Of a stretch of 62,742 nt of DNA, positions 45,925 through 56,907 are shown in pieces. Every line of letters starts with the position of its first letter. The first letter of the stretch is position 1. This stretch comes from Candidatus Dormiibacterota bacterium (GTDB taxonomy: Bacteria; Chloroflexota; Dormibacteria; Aeolococcales; Aeolococcaceae), in NCBI GenBank assembly GCA_003153125.1, contig PLWW01000023.1, positions 1 through 62,742 of the forward strand, read 5' to 3'. The notes beneath the pieces were generated by a model that made no database searches, had not been told where the DNA came from, and was given only the letters and a program-made list of their open reading frames with translations. A program made the position numbers and the translations under genes.

Positions 45925-46614
45925 GTGAGGACTGTCCTAGTCGTCGATGACGAACCCGAGATCGTCCGCATCCTTCGGGACTACCTGGAGCGGGCAGGGT
46001 TCGAGGTCCTCACGGCGAGCGACGGAGAGATGGCGGTGGCCGCGGCCCGGCGCCAGAGACCGGACCTGGTCATCCTCGACCTCACCCTTCCGTCGCTTGA
46101 CGGGCTCGACGTCGCCCGGGCCCTCCGCCGCGACGGTGAGGTCCCGATCATCATGCTGACGGCGCGCACCGAGGAGAGCGACAGGGTCGCCGGCCTCGAG
46201 CTCGGAGCGGACGACTACGTCGCCAAGCCCTTCAGTCCGCGCGAGGTGGTGGCGCGCGTGCGCGCCGTCCTCCGTCGCGTCGACGCCGTGCGGTCGCATG
46301 GCGACGTGGTCCGCGTCGGCAACGCCATCGAGCTCGACGTCCCCAGGATGGAGACCTCCGTCGACGGCAACCATGTCGAGCTGACCGCGACGGAGTTCCA
46401 GCTGCTGCTCCACATGGCGCGGCAGCCGGGCCGCGTCTTCACGCGTGCGCAGCTGCTCGACGCCGTCCATGGCGTCGCCGTGGAGTCTTACGAGCGCGCC
46501 ATCGACGCGCACGTCAAGAACATCCGCCGCAAGATCGAGCGCGACCCGCACGCCCCGCGTCACCTCCAGACCGTGTTCGGGGTGGGCTACCGCCTCGCCG
46601 ACACCGCGGCATGA
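45925..46614 (+). CDS. OmpR-family response regulator (BaeR-like)
   Basis: A 229-residue regulator. The receiver has VVDDEPEIV, phospho-acceptor Asp52 in VILDLTLP and Lys in VAKPFS. The winged helix has LTATEFQLLLHMAR and YERAIDAHVKNIRRKIE. It overlaps the next histidine kinase gene by 4 bp. The target genes are unknown. Together with 46611-47741 and perhaps 47768-48979 it forms one unit. Confidence 0.9.
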   Translation: MRTVLVVDDEPEIVRILRDYLERAGFEVLTASDGEMAVAAARRQRPDLVILDLTLPSLDGLDVARALRRDGEVPIIMLTARTEESDRVAGLELGADDYVAKPFSPREVVARVRAVLRRVDAVRSHGDVVRVGNAIELDVPRMETSVDGNHVELTATEFQLLLHMARQPGRVFTRAQLLDAVHGVAVESYERAIDAHVKNIRRKIERDPHAPRHLQTVFGVGYRLADTAA

Positions 46615-47741
46615 CCGAGCCCGGTGACGGTCAGCGTTGGTCGGGGCCGCGAGGCGAGCGTCCGCCATGGTGGCCCGCCGACCGGCCCTGGCCGCCGCCG
46701 CCGGGGCAGGACTGGCGGCGCCACGGGCGGCGGGTGGCGCGGCGCGTCGGCTGCGCGGTGGCCCTGCTGTTCGTGGTTCTCGGCGGTGCCGGCGCAGCCC
46801 TGATCTGGCTGTTGCTCAGCGTCACCGGCGCAGTGGGCTCGGCGCCCTTCGCGCGGGTCGTCTCCGGTGCCGGGTTGTTGCTCGGGATCGCCGCCGTGGT
46901 CGGCGCCGCGGTCGTCGTGCGCCGCCTCACCACCCCGGCGTCGCGCCTCGTCGAGGCCGCCCGGCGCATCGAATCCGGCGACTACTCCGCGCGCGTTCCC
47001 GTCCGAGGGCCGAGCGAGTTTCGCTCGCTGGCGCGAGCCTTCAACGCGCTCAGCGGCAAGCTCGAGGCCGAGGAGGCGAGGCGTCGGTCGGTGCTGGCCG
47101 ACGTGGCCCACGAGCTGCGCACGCCGATCACGGTGATCCGCGGCCAGGCTGAGGGCATCATCGACGGCGTCTACGCCGCTGATGCCGAGCACATGCGCCC
47201 GGTCCTCGCAGCCACCCGCAGTCTCGAGGTGCTGGTCGACGACCTGCGCACCCTCGCTCTCGCCGACGCGGGCAGCCTGCACCTGCAACGCGAGCCGGTC
47301 GAGCTTGCCATCCTCGTCCACGACACCTTCGCGACCTTCGCGGACGTTGCGTCGGCTGCCGGCGCGCGCCTGTCCGCACGCATCGAGCCACCGGGGCTTG
47401 TGATCGACGCCGACAGCGTGCGCCTCGGCAGTGTGCTCGCCAACCTCGTCAGCAACGCCCTGCGCCACGTGCATCGCGGCGGCGAGGTGCGCGTCGACGC
47501 CCGGGAGTTCGGCGGCGGGGTCGAGGTTGTCGTGGGCGACGACGGCGACGGCATCGCGCCGACACTTCTGCCGCGCGTGTTCGATCGATTCGTCAAGGGC
47601 GTGGACTCGCCGGGGTCAGGTCTCGGCCTGGCCATCGTCCGTGACATCGTCGAGGCGCACAGTGGCACGGTGACCATGGCCAGCACGCTCGGCGCAGGAA
47701 CCGAGGTGCGGCTGACGCTGCCGCCGGCCCACGAGAGCTGA
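46611..47741 (+). CDS. membrane sensor histidine kinase (BaeS-like)
   Basis: A 376-residue kinase. A Pro/Trp/Arg-rich head of 45 residues is followed by two helices (about 47-70 and 82-103) with almost no extracellular loop, a HAMP domain (104-157), HisKA with His167 in DVAHELRTPITVIRG and an ATPase domain with NALRHVHRGG, DDGDGI and GSGLGLAIV. The very short loop suggests sensing within the membrane or from inside. It is coupled to the preceding regulator. Confidence 0.9.
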   Translation: MTEPGDGQRWSGPRGERPPWWPADRPWPPPPGQDWRRHGRRVARRVGCAVALLFVVLGGAGAALIWLLLSVTGAVGSAPFARVVSGAGLLLGIAAVVGAAVVVRRLTTPASRLVEAARRIESGDYSARVPVRGPSEFRSLARAFNALSGKLEAEEARRRSVLADVAHELRTPITVIRGQAEGIIDGVYAADAEHMRPVLAATRSLEVLVDDLRTLALADAGSLHLQREPVELAILVHDTFATFADVASAAGARLSARIEPPGLVIDADSVRLGSVLANLVSNALRHVHRGGEVRVDAREFGGGVEVVVGDDGDGIAPTLLPRVFDRFVKGVDSPGSGLGLAIVRDIVEAHSGTVTMASTLGAGTEVRLTLPPAHES

Positions 47742-47767: not shown

Positions 47768-48979
47768 GTGAGCAGCGCGCGAGCACCCGCGACGGCGCGA
47801 GGCATCCTCGGCTACCTGGGCGCGCTCCTTGCGCCGGTGGCGGCCACCGCGGCGCTGGTGCCGCTGGGCGGCGGCGTGTCGCGCGACTACGTGTTCATCT
47901 ACCTCGCGGTGGTCGCAGTCCTCGCCGTGGTGAGCGGACTGGGCGCCGCCACCTGCGCCGCGTTGGTGAGCTTCCTGCTCGTCGACTACTTCTTCGTCGC
48001 CCCCGTGCACACACTGACCATCGCCGACCAGACGGACGTCATCAACCTCATCGTGTTCGTCGGCACCGCGCTCCTCGTCGGCGGCCTGGGCTCGCGGCGG
48101 CGACGTGCGCAGCTGCGTGCGGAGGCGCTGTCGGTCGAGTTGCGCCACGCCAACGCTGAGCTGGAGCGGCTCAACCGCGAGCAGGCGGAGGCGGCGGCCG
48201 TGGCCGTGAGGCTGGCGCGCACCGAGCAGCAGGTGCACGCGCTCGAGGAGACAGACCGGCTCCGCGCCGAGCTGCTCGCCAACGTCTCCCATGAGCTGCG
48301 CACCCCCCTGGGCACGATCCTGACCGGCACCACCGACCTGCTCAACGACGGGGACCTGGCGCAGGCGGCGCGCGCCCGGATCAGGAGCGTCGTCGCCGAG
48401 ACCCAGCGCCTCGGCCGCCTCGTCTCCGACATGCTCGACCTCGCCCGCATCGAGGGCCGAGCCCTTCGCCTCGATCCCGCCGAGGTGGCCCTGCGCGACG
48501 CGGTCGACGCGGCCGTCGAGCGGCTGCGTCGCACCTCCCCCGACCGTGTCGTGACGATCGATTTCGACGAGACGATCGAGGTGACCGCCGATTGGGACCG
48601 TCTCGGCCAGATCCTCGACAACCTCCTGCGCAACGCTGACCTGTACTCCCCCTCGGGGAGCCCCATCCGCGTCGAGGCCGCGCGCGGCAAGCGCTCGATG
48701 GTGGTGACCAGGATCATCGATCAAGGTCCGGGGATCCCCGCCGACCAGCGCGAGCGCATCTTCGAGCGCTTCGTTCGGTCCAGCGACGACGCCGACGCCC
48801 ACGCTGGCGGGACGGGCCTCGGCCTGGCCATCGTTCGCGGACTGGTCGAGGCACACGCGGGGCGTGTGTGGGTGGAGGATCCGCGCGACGGAGAGGGGAC
48901 CCGCCTGGCGTTCGCCCTTCCCGCCGCCGGTCCGTCAGCCGTCGCTGGCGAGGATGTGCACATCGACGTCGACGAGTAG
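47768..48979 (+). CDS. kdpD: KdpD C-terminal half: DUF4118 membrane domain plus histidine kinase
   Basis: A 403-residue protein equal to the second half of KdpD. Residues 12-108 hold four short membrane helices with SFLLVDYFFVAPVHTLTI, the DUF4118 signature. A coiled linker (115-165) leads to HisKA with His175 in NVSHELRTPLGTILTG and an ATPase domain with NLLRNADLYSP and GGTGLGLAIVRG. The N-terminal KdpD/USP part is absent; it is encoded separately at 48935-51130 on the other strand. The gene lies 26 bp after the BaeS-like kinase gene, so it may be transcribed with that pair. Its end overlaps the sensor-half gene by 45 bp, tail to tail. Confidence 0.87.
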   Translation: MSSARAPATARGILGYLGALLAPVAATAALVPLGGGVSRDYVFIYLAVVAVLAVVSGLGAATCAALVSFLLVDYFFVAPVHTLTIADQTDVINLIVFVGTALLVGGLGSRRRRAQLRAEALSVELRHANAELERLNREQAEAAAVAVRLARTEQQVHALEETDRLRAELLANVSHELRTPLGTILTGTTDLLNDGDLAQAARARIRSVVAETQRLGRLVSDMLDLARIEGRALRLDPAEVALRDAVDAAVERLRRTSPDRVVTIDFDETIEVTADWDRLGQILDNLLRNADLYSPSGSPIRVEAARGKRSMVVTRIIDQGPGIPADQRERIFERFVRSSDDADAHAGGTGLGLAIVRGLVEAHAGRVWVEDPRDGEGTRLAFALPAAGPSAVAGEDVHIDVDE

Positions 48980-51130
48980 CCGGATGAGGCGGCGCAGGGT
49001 CCGCGACTGGCGCCTGCCGGGAGTGCGCATGAGCACGATCTCCGTGCTGCCGTGGTCGCGGGCGTACTCCGCGACCGTGGCCGCGATGTCGTTGCCGTCG
49101 ATCGTCACGAACTGACCACCTAGCTGGTGGATGAGTGCCGCGTAGCCGCCTAGCAGCTGCTTCTCTGCGTCGGTCCGGTGAGTCCGACGCACGGAGATGG
49201 CGGTCACCGCATCGTCCCGGCTCGCGGCGAGCCGTGCCGCCGTGGTCAGCAGTTGCTCCTGACCCGGGAGCGGCGGCACGCACACGAGCAGGCGCGGTCT
49301 AGCCTGCCACGGGGCGGCGATGTTCTTCGATGCCATGTAGCTGAGCAGGCGGCGGTCGGTGTGCTGGGCGACGCGGCGGAAGGTCAGTTCGCGCAGCATC
49401 GCCAGCACCGTCGGCCGAAACGCGCCCTGCAGCGCGCGCAACGCCGCCTGCGGACTCATGATCAGCCCGTCACGCAGCCGCTCCTCGAGCTCGGCGGGAA
49501 CGATGTCGACCAGTTCGACCTCGTCGGCGGCGTCGAGTGCGGCGTCATCCACAACCGCCGAGCTCGGGTCGCGATCCATCAGCGTCCCCATGGCGGAAAC
49601 GGTGCTCTCCAGGTTGCCGATGTCCACGGTGGCGATGACGGTGACGCCGGCGGCCCGGATCACGGGGATCACGTCGGCGACCAGCTCGCCTGCGGTGGTG
49701 TGGCCGGCGAGGTCGTCCACCGCCGCAACCTCTGGATTGCGCGCCAACAGGGCCGGCAGGTCGACAACGCCGCGCGCGGCGGCTGACCTGTGTCCGCCAA
49801 GGAGCGTCAGGCCGTCCAGCTGCCCGACGGCGGTCACGGGCACCGCCGCGACCACCACGTCAGTACCGCGCCCGGCTCGACGACGCGCCTCGTCGAGCAT
49901 CGCGGTGGTCGTGCCGCAGCCGCGTGCGTACCCCATGTAGACACGCAGGCTGCCGATGCTGTGGGAGTCGCCCTGCAACCGGCGCAGCAGGCTGTCTGGG
50001 TCGGGCCTCTCCGGATCATCGCCCGCAGCGATGCCGTGCCGCGCGATCACATGCACGTCGACGTCGGGGAGACCCTCGACGATGCGGTCGACGATGTTGG
50101 GCCGCAGCGAGCCTACCAGTCCGCCTGCCTTCGGCTCACCGATGACCACGTGCCGCGCTAACCGCTCTCGCGTGGCGTCGATCACCGTGGTGGCGATGTC
50201 GACCCCGTCTCGCTCGACGACCCCACACTGCAACTCTGTCGATAGCCGCCGCCAGGTGACGTCATCAGCATCGGGGCTGGTGGCGTGCTCGTGGACGTGG
50301 ACGATGGTGCAGAGGCCGCGACGGCGACGAGCCAATCGGGCGGCGCGGCGAATCAGCTGCTCGGCGCTGCTCCTCCCCGACACGGCGACGATGACGTCCT
50401 CCGGCGGCGCTTGGACGCCGCCGCGCTCGGTCCCCACCCGTTCGGCGACGAAGCGCAACCCGATTTCGCGCAGGGCCGCGAGGTTGCCGGGGCGGAAGAA
50501 GTTCTCGAGCGCGGTGTCGACCCGATCTGGGGCGTAGACGTTGCCGTGACGCATGCGCTTGCGCAGGGCCTCGGGGGTGATGTCGATGAACTGCACCTCG
50601 TCCGCGGCATCGAGAACGGTGTCGGGTACCGTCTCTTGGATGGTGATCCCGGTGATCTGTTCGACGAGGTCCTTCACCGATTCCAGGTGCTGGATGTTCA
50701 TGGTGCTGATCACGTCGATGCCGGCCGCGCGGATCTCCTCGATGTCCTTCCATCGCTTGTTATGCCGCAACCCCGGTGCGTTGGTGTGCGCCAACTCATC
50801 GACCAGTGCCACCTGTGGCTGGCGCTCGATCACGCCGTCGACGTCCATGTCGGAGAGCGTCGTCCCCTTGTACGTCACCGTGATCCGGGGTATCACCTCG
50901 AGCGTGCCGATGGCCTCGGCGGTGTGCCGGCGACCGTGCGTCTCCACGAACCCGACAACCACGTCCTCGCCGTCCTCGCGCCGGTCGCGGCCCTCGCGAA
51001 GCATGGCGAATGTCTTCCCGGACCCAGGGGTGGCGCCGAGGTACACCTTGAGAAGCCCGCGGCGCTGCGGCCGGTCGGTCAGAACGGCAGCAGCGGTGGA
51101 CGATACCGGCTCAGGAGGCTGCACCGGCAT
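48935..51130 (-). CDS. KdpD sensor half, internally duplicated, no kinase
   Basis: A 731-residue protein made of two copies of the KdpD-sensor-plus-USP unit (about residues 25-365 and 394-730). Copy 1 has Walker A GATPGSGKT (32-40), DELAHTN (111-117) and STMNIQHLESV (142-152). Copy 2 aligns with the same landmarks at an offset near 360 (VDDLAGHT, ATVDIGNLEST, DAADEVELVDI) but its Walker A reads GYARGCGTT, so the Lys is lost. No membrane helices or kinase follow. It is the last gene of the kdp operon and overlaps kdpC by 20 bp. It probably works with the kinase half at 47768-48979. Confidence 0.88.
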   Translation of the reverse strand: MPVQPPEPVSSTAAAVLTDRPQRRGLLKVYLGATPGSGKTFAMLREGRDRREDGEDVVVGFVETHGRRHTAEAIGTLEVIPRITVTYKGTTLSDMDVDGVIERQPQVALVDELAHTNAPGLRHNKRWKDIEEIRAAGIDVISTMNIQHLESVKDLVEQITGITIQETVPDTVLDAADEVQFIDITPEALRKRMRHGNVYAPDRVDTALENFFRPGNLAALREIGLRFVAERVGTERGGVQAPPEDVIVAVSGRSSAEQLIRRAARLARRRRGLCTIVHVHEHATSPDADDVTWRRLSTELQCGVVERDGVDIATTVIDATRERLARHVVIGEPKAGGLVGSLRPNIVDRIVEGLPDVDVHVIARHGIAAGDDPERPDPDSLLRRLQGDSHSIGSLRVYMGYARGCGTTTAMLDEARRRAGRGTDVVVAAVPVTAVGQLDGLTLLGGHRSAAARGVVDLPALLARNPEVAAVDDLAGHTTAGELVADVIPVIRAAGVTVIATVDIGNLESTVSAMGTLMDRDPSSAVVDDAALDAADEVELVDIVPAELEERLRDGLIMSPQAALRALQGAFRPTVLAMLRELTFRRVAQHTDRRLLSYMASKNIAAPWQARPRLLVCVPPLPGQEQLLTTAARLAASRDDAVTAISVRRTHRTDAEKQLLGGYAALIHQLGGQFVTIDGNDIAATVAEYARDHGSTEIVLMRTPGRRQSRTLRRLIRLLVDVDVHILASDG

Positions 51131-51812
51131 CGATCGCCATGTTGAGGGAGAGCACGTTGACGTGCGGCGACCCGAAGATCCCCAGGTCGCGGCCCTCGAC
51201 GTGGGCTTCGACCACCTGGCGCAGCTTCACGGGATCGAGGTGCCGTGCCGATGCGACCATGGCGACCTGGGCCAGGGCCCCGGCCTCACTGATGTCGGGG
51301 TCGAAGCCCGTGAAGTCCCCGGTGACCAGGTCCACTGGCATGGGCGCGTTGCTGCCGTCGAGGTTCTTGGCCACCCCAAGACTGTGCAGGTAGTCGGTGT
51401 AGCCCGTGACGCGACTGACCAGGATCTTGCTGCTCGGCGCGAGGTTGCTGCCGGTGGAGTTGGCCGCGTTGCACGGCAGCGGCTTCCCGTTGGCGTCGAC
51501 GGTGAACGACGGCCTGCTCTGGAAGTACCTGGTGTCGATGACGAAGATCGTGTTGCCCTGGTCATCCTTGCTGGTCTGGTAGACGACGTTGCCGCTCTTG
51601 TCGGTGGTGGTCTTGTAGTAGCACTGGCCGATCAGGCTGGAGCCGATGATGTTCCCCTTGCTGTCAGTGACAAGGCTGCCGTTGGCCTGGTGATTGAACG
51701 CCACCTGAGAGACGCCGGTCATCACAAGCGGATAGGCAATGCCGCACACGACTGTGACGGCCAGTGTGATACGGGTGCCGACCCAGAGTTCACGAAGAAG
51801 CTTGCGAAGCAT
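51111..51812 (-). CDS. kdpC: potassium-transporting ATPase subunit KdpC
   Basis: A 233-residue KdpC. One N-terminal membrane helix (about residues 14-35, in LAVTVVCGIAYPLVMTGV) anchors it. SLIGQ, YFQSRPS and SGSNLAPSS-type (here STGSNLAPSS) are family motifs, and the C-terminus has VVEAHVEGRDLGIFG and NVLSLNMAID. It is longer than the usual 190 or so residues because of an insertion around residues 62-90. It starts 10 bp after kdpB. Confidence 0.93.
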   Translation of the reverse strand: MLRKLLRELWVGTRITLAVTVVCGIAYPLVMTGVSQVAFNHQANGSLVTDSKGNIIGSSLIGQCYYKTTTDKSGNVVYQTSKDDQGNTIFVIDTRYFQSRPSFTVDANGKPLPCNAANSTGSNLAPSSKILVSRVTGYTDYLHSLGVAKNLDGSNAPMPVDLVTGDFTGFDPDISEAGALAQVAMVASARHLDPVKLRQVVEAHVEGRDLGIFGSPHVNVLSLNMAIDAGAAS

Positions 51813-51822
51813 GTGAGGCCTC

Positions 51823-53907
51823 CTAGGCCAGATGAACGGCCGTGATCAAGATGTCAATCACCTTGATCCCGATGAACGGCGCGACGACCCCTCCGACGCC
51901 GTAGATGAGCAGATTGCGACGAAGCAGGGCGGCGGCTCCGACCGCGCGATATCCGACGCCCCGCAGGGCAATCGGAATCAGGGCAATGATGATGAGGGCG
52001 TTGAAGATGACCGCGGACAGAATCGCGCTGTGTGGTGAGTGCAAACGCATGATGTTGAGCGCGCCCAGATCAGCCAGCGCGGGAGTGGCGATGAACAGTG
52101 CGGGAATGATTGCAAAGTACTTGGCCACGTCGTTCGCGATCGAGAACGTGGTCAGTGCGCCGCGCGTCATCAGCAATTGCTTACCGGTCTCCACAATCTC
52201 GATGAGCTTTGTTGGATTGGAATCGAGATCAACGAGATTGCCTGCTTCCTTTGCTGCCTGGGTTCCGCTCTGCATGGCCACGCCGACATCTGCCTGCGCC
52301 AGGGCGGGCGCGTCGTTGGTCCCGTCCCCCGTCATGGCAACCAGTTTGCCCTCGCCCTGCTCCTGGCGAATCAGCGCGAGCTTGTCCTCCGGGGTGGCCT
52401 CGGCGAGGAAGTCGTCGACCCCCGCCTCCTTTGCGATGGCCGCCGCGGTGAGGGGGTTGTCGCCTGTGATCATGACCGTGCGCAAACCCATCCGGCGCAT
52501 CTCCTCGAAGCGCTCCTTGATGCCCGGCTTGACAATGTCCTTGAGGTGAATCGTTCCCAGGATCTTCTTGTTCTCGGCGACGACCAGTGGCGTGCCGCCG
52601 CTCCGAGCGATCTTCTCGACGTCGGAGCTGACCTTTTCGGGCAGGTCCCTGGACCCACCGTCAGAGCACCAACGCGCCACCGAGTCCGCCGCCCCCTTGC
52701 GAATCGAGGTTCCGGACTGGTCGACGCCACTCATCCGCGTGGTCGCGGAGAAGGGAACAAACTCCCATCCATCTGCGGAGCCCCCCGATGCACCGAGCCG
52801 CTTCGCTAGCGCGACGATGCTGCGGCCCTCAGGGGTTTCGTCAGGGAGGGACGCGAGATTTGCCGCCTGCACCAGCCGCTGCATGTCGACACCGCCTGCG
52901 GGGAGGAACTCTGAGGCTTGCCTGTTCCCCAGGGTGATGGTTCCGGTCTTGTCGAGCAGCAGGGTATCGACGTCGCCCGCGGCCTCCACCGCACGGCCTG
53001 ACATCGCAATCACGTTCTTCTGCATCAACCGATCGATACCCGCGATCCCGATGGCCGACAGGAGAGCCCCGATGGTCGTCGGGATCAGGCAGACCAGGAG
53101 TGCGATGAGCACGGTCACGGTCACCGAGGTCCCGGCGTAGACCGCAAAAGGCTGCAGCGTCACCACGGCAAACATGAAGATGATCGTCAGCCCGGCCAGG
53201 AGGATGTTCAACGCGATCTCGTTGGGCGTCTTCTGCCGAGACGCCGACTCTACCAACCCGATGATCTTGTCGAGGAAGGTCTCGCCCGGGTTCTGGGTGA
53301 TCTCCACCACGATACGATCGGACAGCACCCGGGTACCCCCGGTCACCGCGCTGCGGTCGCCTCCGGCCTCGCGAATGACGGGGGCCGACTCACCGGTGAT
53401 GGCCGACTCGTCGACCGATGCGATGCCCTCGATGATGGTCCCGTCGCTGGGGATGACGTCTCCCACCTCGCAGATGACGATGTCACCCTTGCGGAGTTCC
53501 GGAGCCGGCACGGGAGCCTCCCTGCCGTCGACCAACCTGCGGGCGATGGTGTCCGTTCGTGTTCTCCGCAGCGTCGCCGCCTGCGCCTTGCCACGGCCCT
53601 CGGCCACAGCCTCGGCAAAGTTGGCGAACAGCACCGTGAACCACAGCCAGAGCGCGATCTGAAAGACGAAACCGCTGTTGGGGTCGTGGTTGAAGAGCCC
53701 CGTGACAAACGCATACGTGGTCATCAGGGCTCCGATGCCCACCACGAACATGACCGGATTGCGCGCCTGCCAGCGAGGACTCAGTTTCCGGAAGGAGTCG
53801 CCGAGCGCGGGAATCAGGATGGCGCGGTCCAGCAGGCTCTGGGTGCGACGGCGACGGGACCGGACGGGAGCGGGCTGCGGGTTTGGGGTGGACGCTACAA
53901 CTGTCAT
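51823..53907 (-). CDS. kdpB: potassium-transporting P-type ATPase KdpB
   Basis: A 694-residue P-type ATPase, the energising subunit of the Kdp K+ uptake pump. The phosphorylation motif DKTGT lies near residue 315 in [19 protein letters not shown] is the actuator motif, and [19 protein letters not shown] is the hinge. [16 protein letters not shown] in the membrane domain is specific to KdpB. The start ATG 53907 gives the usual N-terminus; the open frame further up lies antisense to nothing useful and inside kdpA. Confidence 0.95.
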
Positions 53908-53915
53908 TCCTGCTC

Positions 53916-55652
53916 TCAGTGAAGGTGACCGGCGACGATTTGCAGGTGCTCGAGGATCGGTCCGAGCGTCAGCGCAGGGAAGAACGTGAGCGCCCCGATC
54001 ACCAGAACCACACCGATGAGCAGGAGCGAGAACAGTGGGGTGTCGGTGGGAAAGGTTCCCGCGCTCGCGGGGATCACCTTCTTCTTCACCATCGATCCGG
54101 CCAGCGCAAGGATCGGAATCAGGAACAGATACCGTCCCATCCACATGGCGAGCTCAAGTGTGGTGTTGTAGTAGAGGGTGTTCCCGGTCAGGCCGGCGAA
54201 CGCGCTCCCGTTGTTTCCCGTCGCTGAGCTGAAGGCGTAGAGGATCTCGCTGAACCCGTGTGGTCCGGAGTTCAGAGGACCCACCTGACCTGGTGTCACC
54301 AAGACCGACAGTGCGGTGAAACCGAGAATAGACAGCGGAAGAATGAGGATGGCAAGCGCCGCCAATTTCACCTCCCGGGCGTCGATCTTCTTGCCCAGGT
54401 ACTCCGGCGTGCGACCGACCATGAGCCCGGCGATGAAAACACCGAGAATGACGAACATCAGCATCCCGTAGAGCCCGGCGCCGATGCCGCCAGGGGTGAT
54501 CTCACCCAACTCCATGGAGAGGAGCGGTACCAGGCCGCCCAGCGCGGTCAGGCTGTCGTGCGAGGCATCCACGGACCCAGTGCTGGTCCCCGTGGTCGAT
54601 GCGACGAACTGCGACGACTGTGGAATGCCGAATCGGACGGACTTCCCCTCCATGTTTCCGCCCGACTGAGAGGCGCTCGCCACCTGCGTCACACCGGCTC
54701 CGTTGAGGGCTGGATTCCCGGCTTGCTCGGCGTAGATGGCGATGCCGGTCATGCCGGCTAGGATCACGCCCATCGCGGCGAGAACTGCCATCCCCTGCTT
54801 GATGTTGCCCACCATCCGCCCAAAGGTGAAGGTGAGTGAGATCGAGATGAGCAGGAGACTGAAGATGGTGAAGGCGTTGGTGAACCCGTTGGGATTCTCA
54901 TAGGGATGCGCCGAGTTGGCATTGAAGAACCCACCACCGTTGTTGCCCAGGTCCTTGATGATCTCCTGCGACGCAACCGGCCCCTGCGCGATGGTCTGGG
55001 TGACACCGGTCAGCGTGTGGGCCTGGGTGTACCCAGAGAAGTTCTGGATCGCCCCTTGGGAAACGTAGACAAGGGTCCCGATGACCGCGATCGGCAGCAG
55101 GACGTAGAGGATCCCCCGCGTCACATCGACGTAGAAACTGCCCAGCGTCTTCCCCGACCGTCGCGCCAGCCCGCGGATCAGAGCAATCGCCAGTGCCAAG
55201 CCGGTGGCTGCGGACAGGAAGTTGTGCATCACCAGCGCGACCATTTGCGAGAAGTAGCTCATCGTGGCCTCGCCCGCATAGTTCTGCCAGTTCGTGTTGG
55301 TCGCAAAGCTGATCGACGTGTTCATGGCCAGGTCAGGGGCCACACCGGGGAACCCCTGAGGATTGATCACGCTCTGGAACGGCAGCCTGTCTTGGAAGCG
55401 CAGCAGCAGGAAGGTGACAAGAATGCTCACCACCGTCACCACCAGGGTTGCCGCCAGATAGCGAACCCAGGTCTGCTCGTCATCCTCCTTCACCCCGATG
55501 AGTCGGTACACACCCCGCTCGACCGGGTGGAGAACGCGGCTGAGGAGCGTGCGCTCGCCGCTGAACACCTTGGCCATGTACTTCCCCAGCGGACGGGCGC
55601 ACAAGACCACCGCGGCGAAGGTGACCACGACCCCAATGATCTCCCAGAGCAT
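53916..55652 (-). CDS. kdpA: potassium-transporting ATPase subunit KdpA
   Basis: A 578-residue potassium channel-like subunit with about ten helices. Selectivity-filter regions are recognisable as [37 protein letters not shown] and [14 protein letters not shown]. The first residues [16 protein letters not shown] and the GKYMAKVF segment are typical. The start overlaps the kdpF stop (TGATG). kdpB follows after 8 bp. Confidence 0.95.
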
Positions 55653-55747
55653 CAGAACTTCTCCGGAAAGAGCATTGCGGCAACGAGGTAGATTATTGCC
55701 AGCAGAGCGATGATGCCGGCGACGATGTAGCCGGCCACGGGGCTCAT
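55652..55747 (-). CDS. kdpF: KdpF small membrane subunit
   Basis: A 31-residue single-helix peptide (MSPVAGYIVAGIIALLAIIY then LVAAMLFPEKF). The length, position directly before kdpA and the ending LFPEKF match KdpF, which stabilises the KdpABC complex. Its ATG overlaps the stop of the 28-residue gene upstream by 4 bp and its TGA overlaps the kdpA ATG. Confidence 0.9.
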   Translation of the reverse strand: MSPVAGYIVAGIIALLAIIYLVAAMLFPEKF

Positions 55748-55830
55748 AGCTTGGTGAGAGCGGCGACGTACGCCGCGCTGGCCAGCGTCAAGATGGTCAG
55801 GACGACGATCATGAGCAGGTCGACGTTCAC
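55744..55830 (-). CDS. 28-residue membrane peptide of the kdp operon
   Basis: GTG at 55830 opens a 28-codon gene encoding a single hydrophobic helix (NVDLLMIVVLTILTLASAAY then VAALTKL). It overlaps the gene upstream and kdpF downstream by 4 bp each, so all are translationally coupled, which argues for a real gene. I recall similar tiny frames before kdpF in other high-GC genomes, but no function is known to me. It may be an extra KdpF-like stabiliser. Confidence 0.65.
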   Translation of the reverse strand: MNVDLLMIVVLTILTLASAAYVAALTKL

Positions 55831-56168
55831 GCTGCATCGCCCCTTGCACGGTGCCCAGGTGCGGTGAGCTGGATGACGGCGGGCAAAACGTGCCTCTGCA
55901 CGGCGCGCGGATGGTAGACGAATGTCCGTCCCCTCATGGTGATCGCGTCACCCTGCAGGCGGAGGTAACGGGACCTGCGGAACAGCTGGCGGCGTCGCAC
56001 GAGCAGGTCGACGGTGGAGTCGCCCACCACCCGTCCCAGAACAACGCCAAGGCTCACACCCGCCGAGTCGATCACCTGCAATCCGATCAGGCTTGCCAAC
56101 GGCTGCCGGAGAGCGCGGCTCCTGCCCTCGTCCATGCCGGCAGGATCGCTCTGCAAGCGTGAACGCAT
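55827..56168 (-). CDS. PRC-barrel-like protein between kdpE and kdpF
   Basis: A 113-residue protein. The middle (SLIGLQVIDSAGVSLGVVLG then a strand-rich segment to about residue 95) resembles a PRC-barrel fold, though the match is by eye. The flanks are basic. It starts 19 bp after the kdpE stop and overlaps the 28-residue gene by 4 bp. ATG 56168 was chosen because the longer frame runs inside kdpE. A regulatory or RNA-binding role is possible; nothing proves it. Confidence 0.6.
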   Translation of the reverse strand: MRSRLQSDPAGMDEGRSRALRQPLASLIGLQVIDSAGVSLGVVLGRVVGDSTVDLLVRRRQLFRRSRYLRLQGDAITMRGRTFVYHPRAVQRHVLPAVIQLTAPGHRARGDAA

Positions 56169-56187
56169 GGTGAACGTTCTTTGCCGG

Positions 56188-56907
56188 TCAGCCTCTCGCC
56201 GCGCCCACCTCCGGGACGGGTCCGAATCGGTAGCCCTGGCGGCCGACGGTGACGATGACTCGCGGGTCGGCGGGGTCGGCCTCGAGCTTGCGACGCAACC
56301 GATTGACGAAGGTGCGCAGGTACGCGCGATCACCGGCATACGACGGTCCCCACACGCGCGAGAGAAGGGTGCGCTGCTCCATCAACCGTCCGGCGTTGCG
56401 CGCGAGCTCTGCCAGTAGCACGTACTCCGTCGGCGACAGCCGCACTTCGGCGCCGCCCCTGGTCACCGCACGGCTGCCGAGGTCGACGACCACGTCGTCG
56501 CAGCGGATCACCTGGCGTGCCTCCGCAGCGGGCCGCACACGGCGAAGGACAGCGCGCACGCGGGCGAGGAGCTCGTCGGCGCCGAACGGCTTGGTGAGGT
56601 AGTCGTCAGCGCCGAGGTCGAGGGCGCGCACCTTGTCGGTCTCCTCGCCTCGCGCTGAGATGACGATCACCGAGGGCTGGCGGCGGCCCTCCAGCGTCTC
56701 GAGGATCCGCCAGCCGTCGACGAACGGCAGCCCGATGTCGAGGAGAACCACGTCGAAGTCACCGCCTCGTAGGCTCTCGATCCCGGCACGTCCGTCGGAT
56801 GCCGTGCTGACCCGGTGGCCGTGACGTTCGAGGCTGGTCACGAGCACCTGGCGCAGCGCCGCCTCGTCCTCGATGACGAGGATCCGTCCCGTCTCCGTTG
56901 CTGCCAT
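56188..56907 (-). CDS. kdpE: KdpE-type response regulator
   Basis: A 239-residue OmpR-family regulator. The receiver has VIEDEAALR, phospho-acceptor Asp57 in VLLDIGLP and Lys in LTKPFG. The DNA-binding domain has LSPTEYVLLAELARNAG, then WGPSYAGDRAYLRTFVNRLR, the KdpE hallmark. It is the first gene of the kdp unit, whereas kdpE usually follows kdpD. The partner kinase domain lies about 7 kb away on the opposite strand. Confidence 0.9.
   Translation of the reverse strand: MAATETGRILVIEDEAALRQVLVTSLERHGHRVSTASDGRAGIESLRGGDFDVVLLDIGLPFVDGWRILETLEGRRQPSVIVISARGEETDKVRALDLGADDYLTKPFGADELLARVRAVLRRVRPAAEARQVIRCDDVVVDLGSRAVTRGGAEVRLSPTEYVLLAELARNAGRLMEQRTLLSRVWGPSYAGDRAYLRTFVNRLRRKLEADPADPRVIVTVGRQGYRFGPVPEVGAARG

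Follow-up and report, generated by a model that had tools for sequence, protein, structure and literature searches.

A KdpD tandem with one intact and one degenerate serine-kinase unit, and a separate histidine kinase, in a kdp locus of Candidatus Dormiibacterota

The serine kinase activity of KdpD, which switches off KdpB of the potassium pump, was recognised only in 2024 (Silberberg 2024, PMC11018627). According to that report, residues 1-230 of KdpD alone phosphorylate KdpB at Ser162, and the activity needs G36/K37/T38 of Walker A, D109/E110 of Walker B and W39/R190. The division of serine and histidine kinase between two chains is already published as well, and in several species the gene for the serine-kinase chain follows the pump genes. 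Here we analysed the kdp locus on contig PLWW01000023.1 of a Candidatus Dormiibacterota bacterium (62,742 nucleotides, hereafter the window), in which the last operon gene encodes a 731-amino acid (aa) protein with two KdpD-USP units, the first intact in its serine-kinase residues and the second a predicted pseudokinase, and faces the gene of a separate 403-aa histidine kinase.

The nearest described systems are the short KdpD-Usp proteins, such as KdpD of D. geothermalis (Silberberg 2024, PMC11018627), and the split kdpD of Deinococcus radiodurans (PMC5716572) and Alicyclobacillus (Schleussinger et al., via PMC11018627). Like the short proteins, the 731-aa protein combines KdpD and USP without a histidine kinase, is encoded downstream of kdpFABC, has intact serine-kinase residues and leaves the histidine kinase to another chain; unlike them, as the report presents them, it has two KdpD-USP units of which one is degenerate, its histidine kinase lacks GAF, and the S. 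aureus-type motif for cyclic di-adenosine monophosphate (c-di-AMP) is absent. As in the split systems, kdpD-N lies in the pump operon and the sensor kinase and regulator are separate, with the opposite orientation in D. radiodurans. However, the KdpD-N of D. radiodurans is truncated and has no tandem as described, and its kinase and regulator form one operon, whereas in the window kdpE is kept next to the pump genes and the kinase gene is convergent. The best NCBIfam match of the tandem was NF038185 (KdpD-like non-kinase potassium sensor; 466 bits, two stretches), which is under the 550-bit cut-off of that model and describes a single unit of 373 aa. In a literature search of abstracts and hit lists, no description of a tandem KdpD or of a KdpD-domain pseudokinase was found, and the papers searched gave no account of the asymmetric tandem, of a likely double origin for it or of a fusion to an ATP-binding cassette (ABC) ATPase.

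Pfam analysis of the 731-aa protein returned KdpD twice (437 bits, two stretches) and Usp, in agreement with an initial annotation made from the sequence, which had proposed a duplicated N-terminal part of two KdpD/USP units and loss of the second P-loop Lys (Table 1). Its further statement that this protein has no kinase was correct for a histidine kinase but not for the atypical serine kinase, because unit 1 carries the published residue set of GKT, DE and the adenine-pocket Phe/Arg (Phe instead of Trp39). The second unit has GTT and DD at these places and is therefore predicted to be a pseudokinase. The AlphaFold model of the protein was confident within domains (mean predicted local distance difference test score 81.5), and the PDB entries that it matched best were 2r8r (KdpD N-domain) and 7ji4 (KdpD USP); matches to KaiC and ArsA folds were set aside as generic P-loop matches.

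The loci of relatives were retrieved with the unit 2 alignment as query, a single-protein query having given none. The near relatives are mostly Candidatus Dormiibacterota, from soil and peat metagenome-assembled genomes (MAGs), with some Chloroflexi, and Dormibacteria is used below for the class of the window within this genome set. When residues were scored on E. coli numbering (two rows of family f2 had no Walker A columns), GKT and DE were both kept in 36 of 37 Dormibacteria first units and in 0 of 43 second units. The catalytic Glu had become Asp in 41 of the 43 second units, and the other two, from family f3, keep Glu and have lost the Lys, which is missing from all second units of families f1, f3 and f4. 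The adenine-pocket aromatic residue is Thr, Val, Ser or Ala in all second units aligned at that position, and the first Asp of Walker B was retained in every scored unit. Among single-unit KdpDs, those of E. coli and of the Actinomycetota and Bacillota have both GKT and DE without exception, and one divergent Dormibacteria open reading frame (ORF) does not. The ratio of nonsynonymous to synonymous substitution rates (omega, dN/dS) of the unit 2 KdpD domain was 0.03-0.25, similar to that of unit 1 and mostly below that of USP 1, and omega was well under 1 in every domain; this low ratio shows that unit 2 is maintained and not decaying. KdpA was detected in 40 of 110 genomes of the class, and among these, several of which were judged from fragments at contig ends, 35 had evidence of unit 2, four of family f2 had a single unit and none was found in one. 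Several f4 genomes encode unit 1 and unit 2 as two genes with an ATGA overlap; the units are fused in one f4 genome (L157) and elsewhere. A second tandem copy upstream of kdpA in genome G026 (L045:13323-15617) has Asp-Asp in both units and possibly no active unit.

The 403-aa protein contains DUF4118, HisKA and HATPase_c by Pfam. In a quick tree, it belonged to a kinase clade without GAF that was separate from the full-length KdpD kinases (Shimodaira-Hasegawa-like approximate likelihood ratio test 99), and the span from DUF4118 to CA was 366-393 aa for most clade members versus 440-480 aa in most full-length KdpDs. It neither grouped with the C-terminal halves of KdpD nor had GAF, the features by which a divided full-length KdpD was to be recognised. 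Its orthologs adjoin KdpE orthologs with or without kdp. In four genomes of the same genus and others (G001, G003, G010, G007), neither a tandem nor KdpA was found, and the kinase, which can thus do without the tandem there, stands beside a KdpE 68-69% identical to that of the window; these loci (L165-L168) are free-standing pairs of DUF4118 kinase and KdpE with kdp not detected. Because clade members adjoin KdpE even in genomes where kdp was not detected, KdpE is the likely partner of the 403-aa kinase, which may transfer phosphate to it. The cross-talk with the neighbouring BaeSR-type regulator that had been suggested earlier found no support, as this regulator is paired with a kinase of its own at 46611, and the kdp flanks of relatives lack this pair.

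On the basis of gene layout, residue states and conservation, we propose, with a probability of about two in three, that the 731-aa protein is a post-translational off-switch with a regulatory pseudokinase as its second unit, and that transcription is run separately by the 403-aa kinase and KdpE. The two jobs of the one-chain E. coli KdpD would thus be divided between two proteins at this locus. With plentiful K+, unit 1 would act as an atypical serine kinase and phosphorylate KdpB at the equivalent of Ser162, and the pump would stop. Unit 2, a catalytically degenerate copy under selection, may serve unit 1 as a regulator or as a docking partner; it also brings a second USP domain, which could receive a signal from a ligand or a partner. 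Transcription would be left to the DUF4118 kinase and KdpE, apart from the 731-aa protein. As a possible substrate, KdpB is encoded two genes upstream of the tandem in the same operon and its translation reads TGES, which is weak evidence since TGES is common to P-type ATPases.

Several observations weigh against this proposal. The second units of f2 mostly keep Lys and GKT (one has Arg), and, more generally, Asp-for-Glu and the lost Lys point against catalysis but are no proof that binding of ATP, or activity, has been lost. The model has a predicted template modelling score of 0.41, and its confidence does not extend to the packing of the units. The c-di-AMP motif of the S. aureus KdpD USP, SXS-X20-FTAXY (PMC4686210), had no match in either USP or in any tandem tested; the pattern also matched nothing in the Bacillota set and may be too strict. 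A diadenylate cyclase (DAC domain) is present in the host genome and in 57 of 60 relatives, which does not discriminate because it is nearly universal. Furthermore, in one f3 genome (G054, locus L050) kdpE is the direct neighbour of the tandem and facing kinase, kdpFABC being absent from the place between, and the 91%-complete assembly of this genome yielded no KdpA. As this genome keeps the tandem, the kinase and KdpE, KdpB may not be the sole target; the genome may have lost the pump with the regulators kept, or the regulators may have another target.

The initial annotation had taken the 731-aa protein for a kinase-less sensor acting in trans on the detached kinase. That it is an input module of the 403-aa kinase, the two making up one rebuilt KdpD, could be argued from E. 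coli, where ATP binding by the KdpD N-terminal domain is implicated in phosphatase activity, and from the tandem and kinase genes being still neighbours in 17 relatives. We consider it unlikely, because Walker A, Walker B and the adenine pocket of unit 1 are intact, the published target of the serine kinase is KdpB, and the GAF-less kinase clade, set apart from full-length KdpD kinases, pairs with KdpE, including in the four genomes where neither tandem nor KdpA was found and in f4, where the kinase is upstream with kdpE and distant from the tandem. It is less likely still that unit 2 works as a kinase after all, with its catalysis changed or on a different substrate. Purifying selection on unit 2, the invariant first Asp of Walker B, GKT in most of f2 and Glu in f3 would fit such a kinase, but the P-loop Lys is absent in f1, f3 and f4, the catalytic Glu is absent in f1, f2 and f4, the pocket aromatic is replaced wherever aligned, and in E. 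coli both E110A and Walker A mutations abolish the activity.

When the split was sought in related genomes, as the initial annotation had advised, the same convergent pair of a tandem and a facing kinase gene was observed in 17 other Dormibacteria assemblies, and a recent split was thereby ruled out. The host assembly is a draft (3.02 Mb, 130 contigs, 86% complete), which might suggest gene decay, a chimera or a false assembly join without functional meaning, but the conservation refutes this, as the identical junction and residue losses recur across many independent assemblies and omega is far below 1 in all domains. No further KdpD or DUF4118 protein over the cut-off, and so none of the full-length kdpD that had been named as a refutation, was found in the host assembly, although a second kdpD could still lie on sequence missing from this 86%-complete assembly; a weak KdpD match on contig C100 was judged by eye to be an ABC ATPase. 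The kinase gene is indeed a separate gene on the opposite strand overlapping the tandem tail to tail by 45 bp, and the overlap was the ground for suggesting antisense RNA control between the two genes. Such control is very improbable and lacks comparative support: of 18 loci, 15 have a gap of 5-71 bp between the two stop codons and three have an overlap (45, 20 and 26 bp, the latter two both in f3). Neither a terminator-like nor a promoter-like site turned up at the overlap, and read-through transcripts may thus occur. In f4 genomes, the kinase gene is found together with kdpE, upstream of kdpA and on its strand, apart from the tandem. Loci L062, L064 and L065 (G048, G044) combine a KdpD-bearing ORF of full-length size (864-911 aa), kdpE and a tandem.

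Similar tandems were found in Bacillota (Paenibacillus, Brevibacillus, Neobacillus; among L111-L154), where proteins of about 780-800 aa, usually encoded after kdpC, have two KdpD-USP units, one of them degenerate, and no histidine kinase. Unlike in Dormibacteria, the order is reversed, with the pseudo unit first and the active unit second, and Walker A is kept; DE was kept by unit 2 in 37/37 and by unit 1 in 5/37. In an 84-row tree, the second units of the four Dormibacteria families and of the actinobacterial fusion formed a single clade (100/99), and the two Bacillota units clustered with each other (99/92). Forcing the two degenerate kinds together was rejected marginally (p-AU 0.041, approximately unbiased test) with long branches present; two independent duplications, in Dormibacteria and Bacillota, are favoured and, for these reasons, not proven. 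As such an unequal pair apparently evolved on a separate occasion in other bacteria, the degenerate unit 2 probably has a useful function.

Five loci of Streptosporangiaceae and Actinobacteria MAGs (L097, L098, L100, L101, L103) carry an ORF of 1260-1320 aa in which an ABC ATPase (ABC_tran and AAA_assoc_C, by Pfam on three) is fused to a tandem KdpD-USP with both KdpD units degenerate. In the tree, the units of these fusions nest together with those of the Dormibacteria tandem. At the two loci checked, the neighbouring gene encodes a permease in which BPD_transp_1 matches two stretches, and no kdp genes were matched at the five loci. Tentatively, and at slightly less than even odds, these findings may reflect a recurrent design of Kdp control, in which KdpD-USP was duplicated independently in two or more lineages, among them Dormibacteria and Bacillota, with one copy catalytic and the other a regulatory pseudokinase in opposite orders, a layout like that of eukaryotic kinase-pseudokinase pairs, and in which a relative of the Dormibacteria tandem was grafted onto an ABC ATPase in Streptosporangiaceae.

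The positions and strands of the two ORFs were as first annotated (Table 1). The minus-strand gene order is kdpE, kdpF-like, kdpA, kdpB, kdpC and tandem kdpD-N, confirming that kdpE leads the operon, and the histidine kinase gene converges on it. A 170-aa ORF without Pfam match lies between kdpE and kdpF (55827-56339, minus strand). An Rfam search gave no match.

Table 1. Features of the kdp locus in the window.
Feature	Positions	Strand	Remark
kdpD-N tandem, 731-aa KdpD-USP-KdpD-USP	48935..51130	-	active unit + pseudo unit (predicted); last kdp operon gene
Unit 1 KdpD domain (PF02702)	50435..51064	-	atypical-serine-kinase residues intact
Unit 1 Walker A GATPGSGKT	51011..51037	-	
Unit 1 Walker B Asp-Glu	50795..50800	-	equivalent of E. 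coli D109/E110
USP domain 1	50015..50395	-	fastest-evolving domain in most pairs
Unit 2 KdpD domain (PF02702)	49361..49954	-	predicted pseudokinase
Unit 2 degenerate Walker A GYARGCGTT	49907..49933	-	Lys to Thr
Unit 2 degenerate Walker B Asp-Asp	49712..49717	-	catalytic Glu to Asp
USP-like domain 2	48947..49297	-	alignment and fold; 7ji4 matched by profile
403-aa DUF4118 (transmembrane) + DHp + CA histidine kinase	47768..48979	+	no GAF; ortholog of the histidine kinase beside kdpE in relatives
Tail-to-tail overlap	48935..48979		45 bp, not conserved
kdpE response regulator	56188..56907	-	upstream of kdpFABC; probable partner of the 403-aa kinase
kdpF-like 31-aa membrane peptide	55652..55747	-	its stop overlaps the kdpA start
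kdpA	53916..55652	-	
kdpB	51823..53901	-	start approximate (ORF extends upstream); TGES holds the equivalents of E. coli Glu161/Ser162
kdpC	51111..51812	-	
BaeSR/MtrA-type regulator + kinase pair	45925..47741	+	separate, complete; outside the system

This natural version, with its histidine kinase on another chain and a presumably inactive copy attached, makes the two activities of KdpD testable apart. If the pseudokinase did arise more than once, it would indicate a general principle in the control of P-loop serine kinases, and the fusion to an ABC ATPase suggests that KdpD-USP tandems may regulate transporters beyond Kdp.
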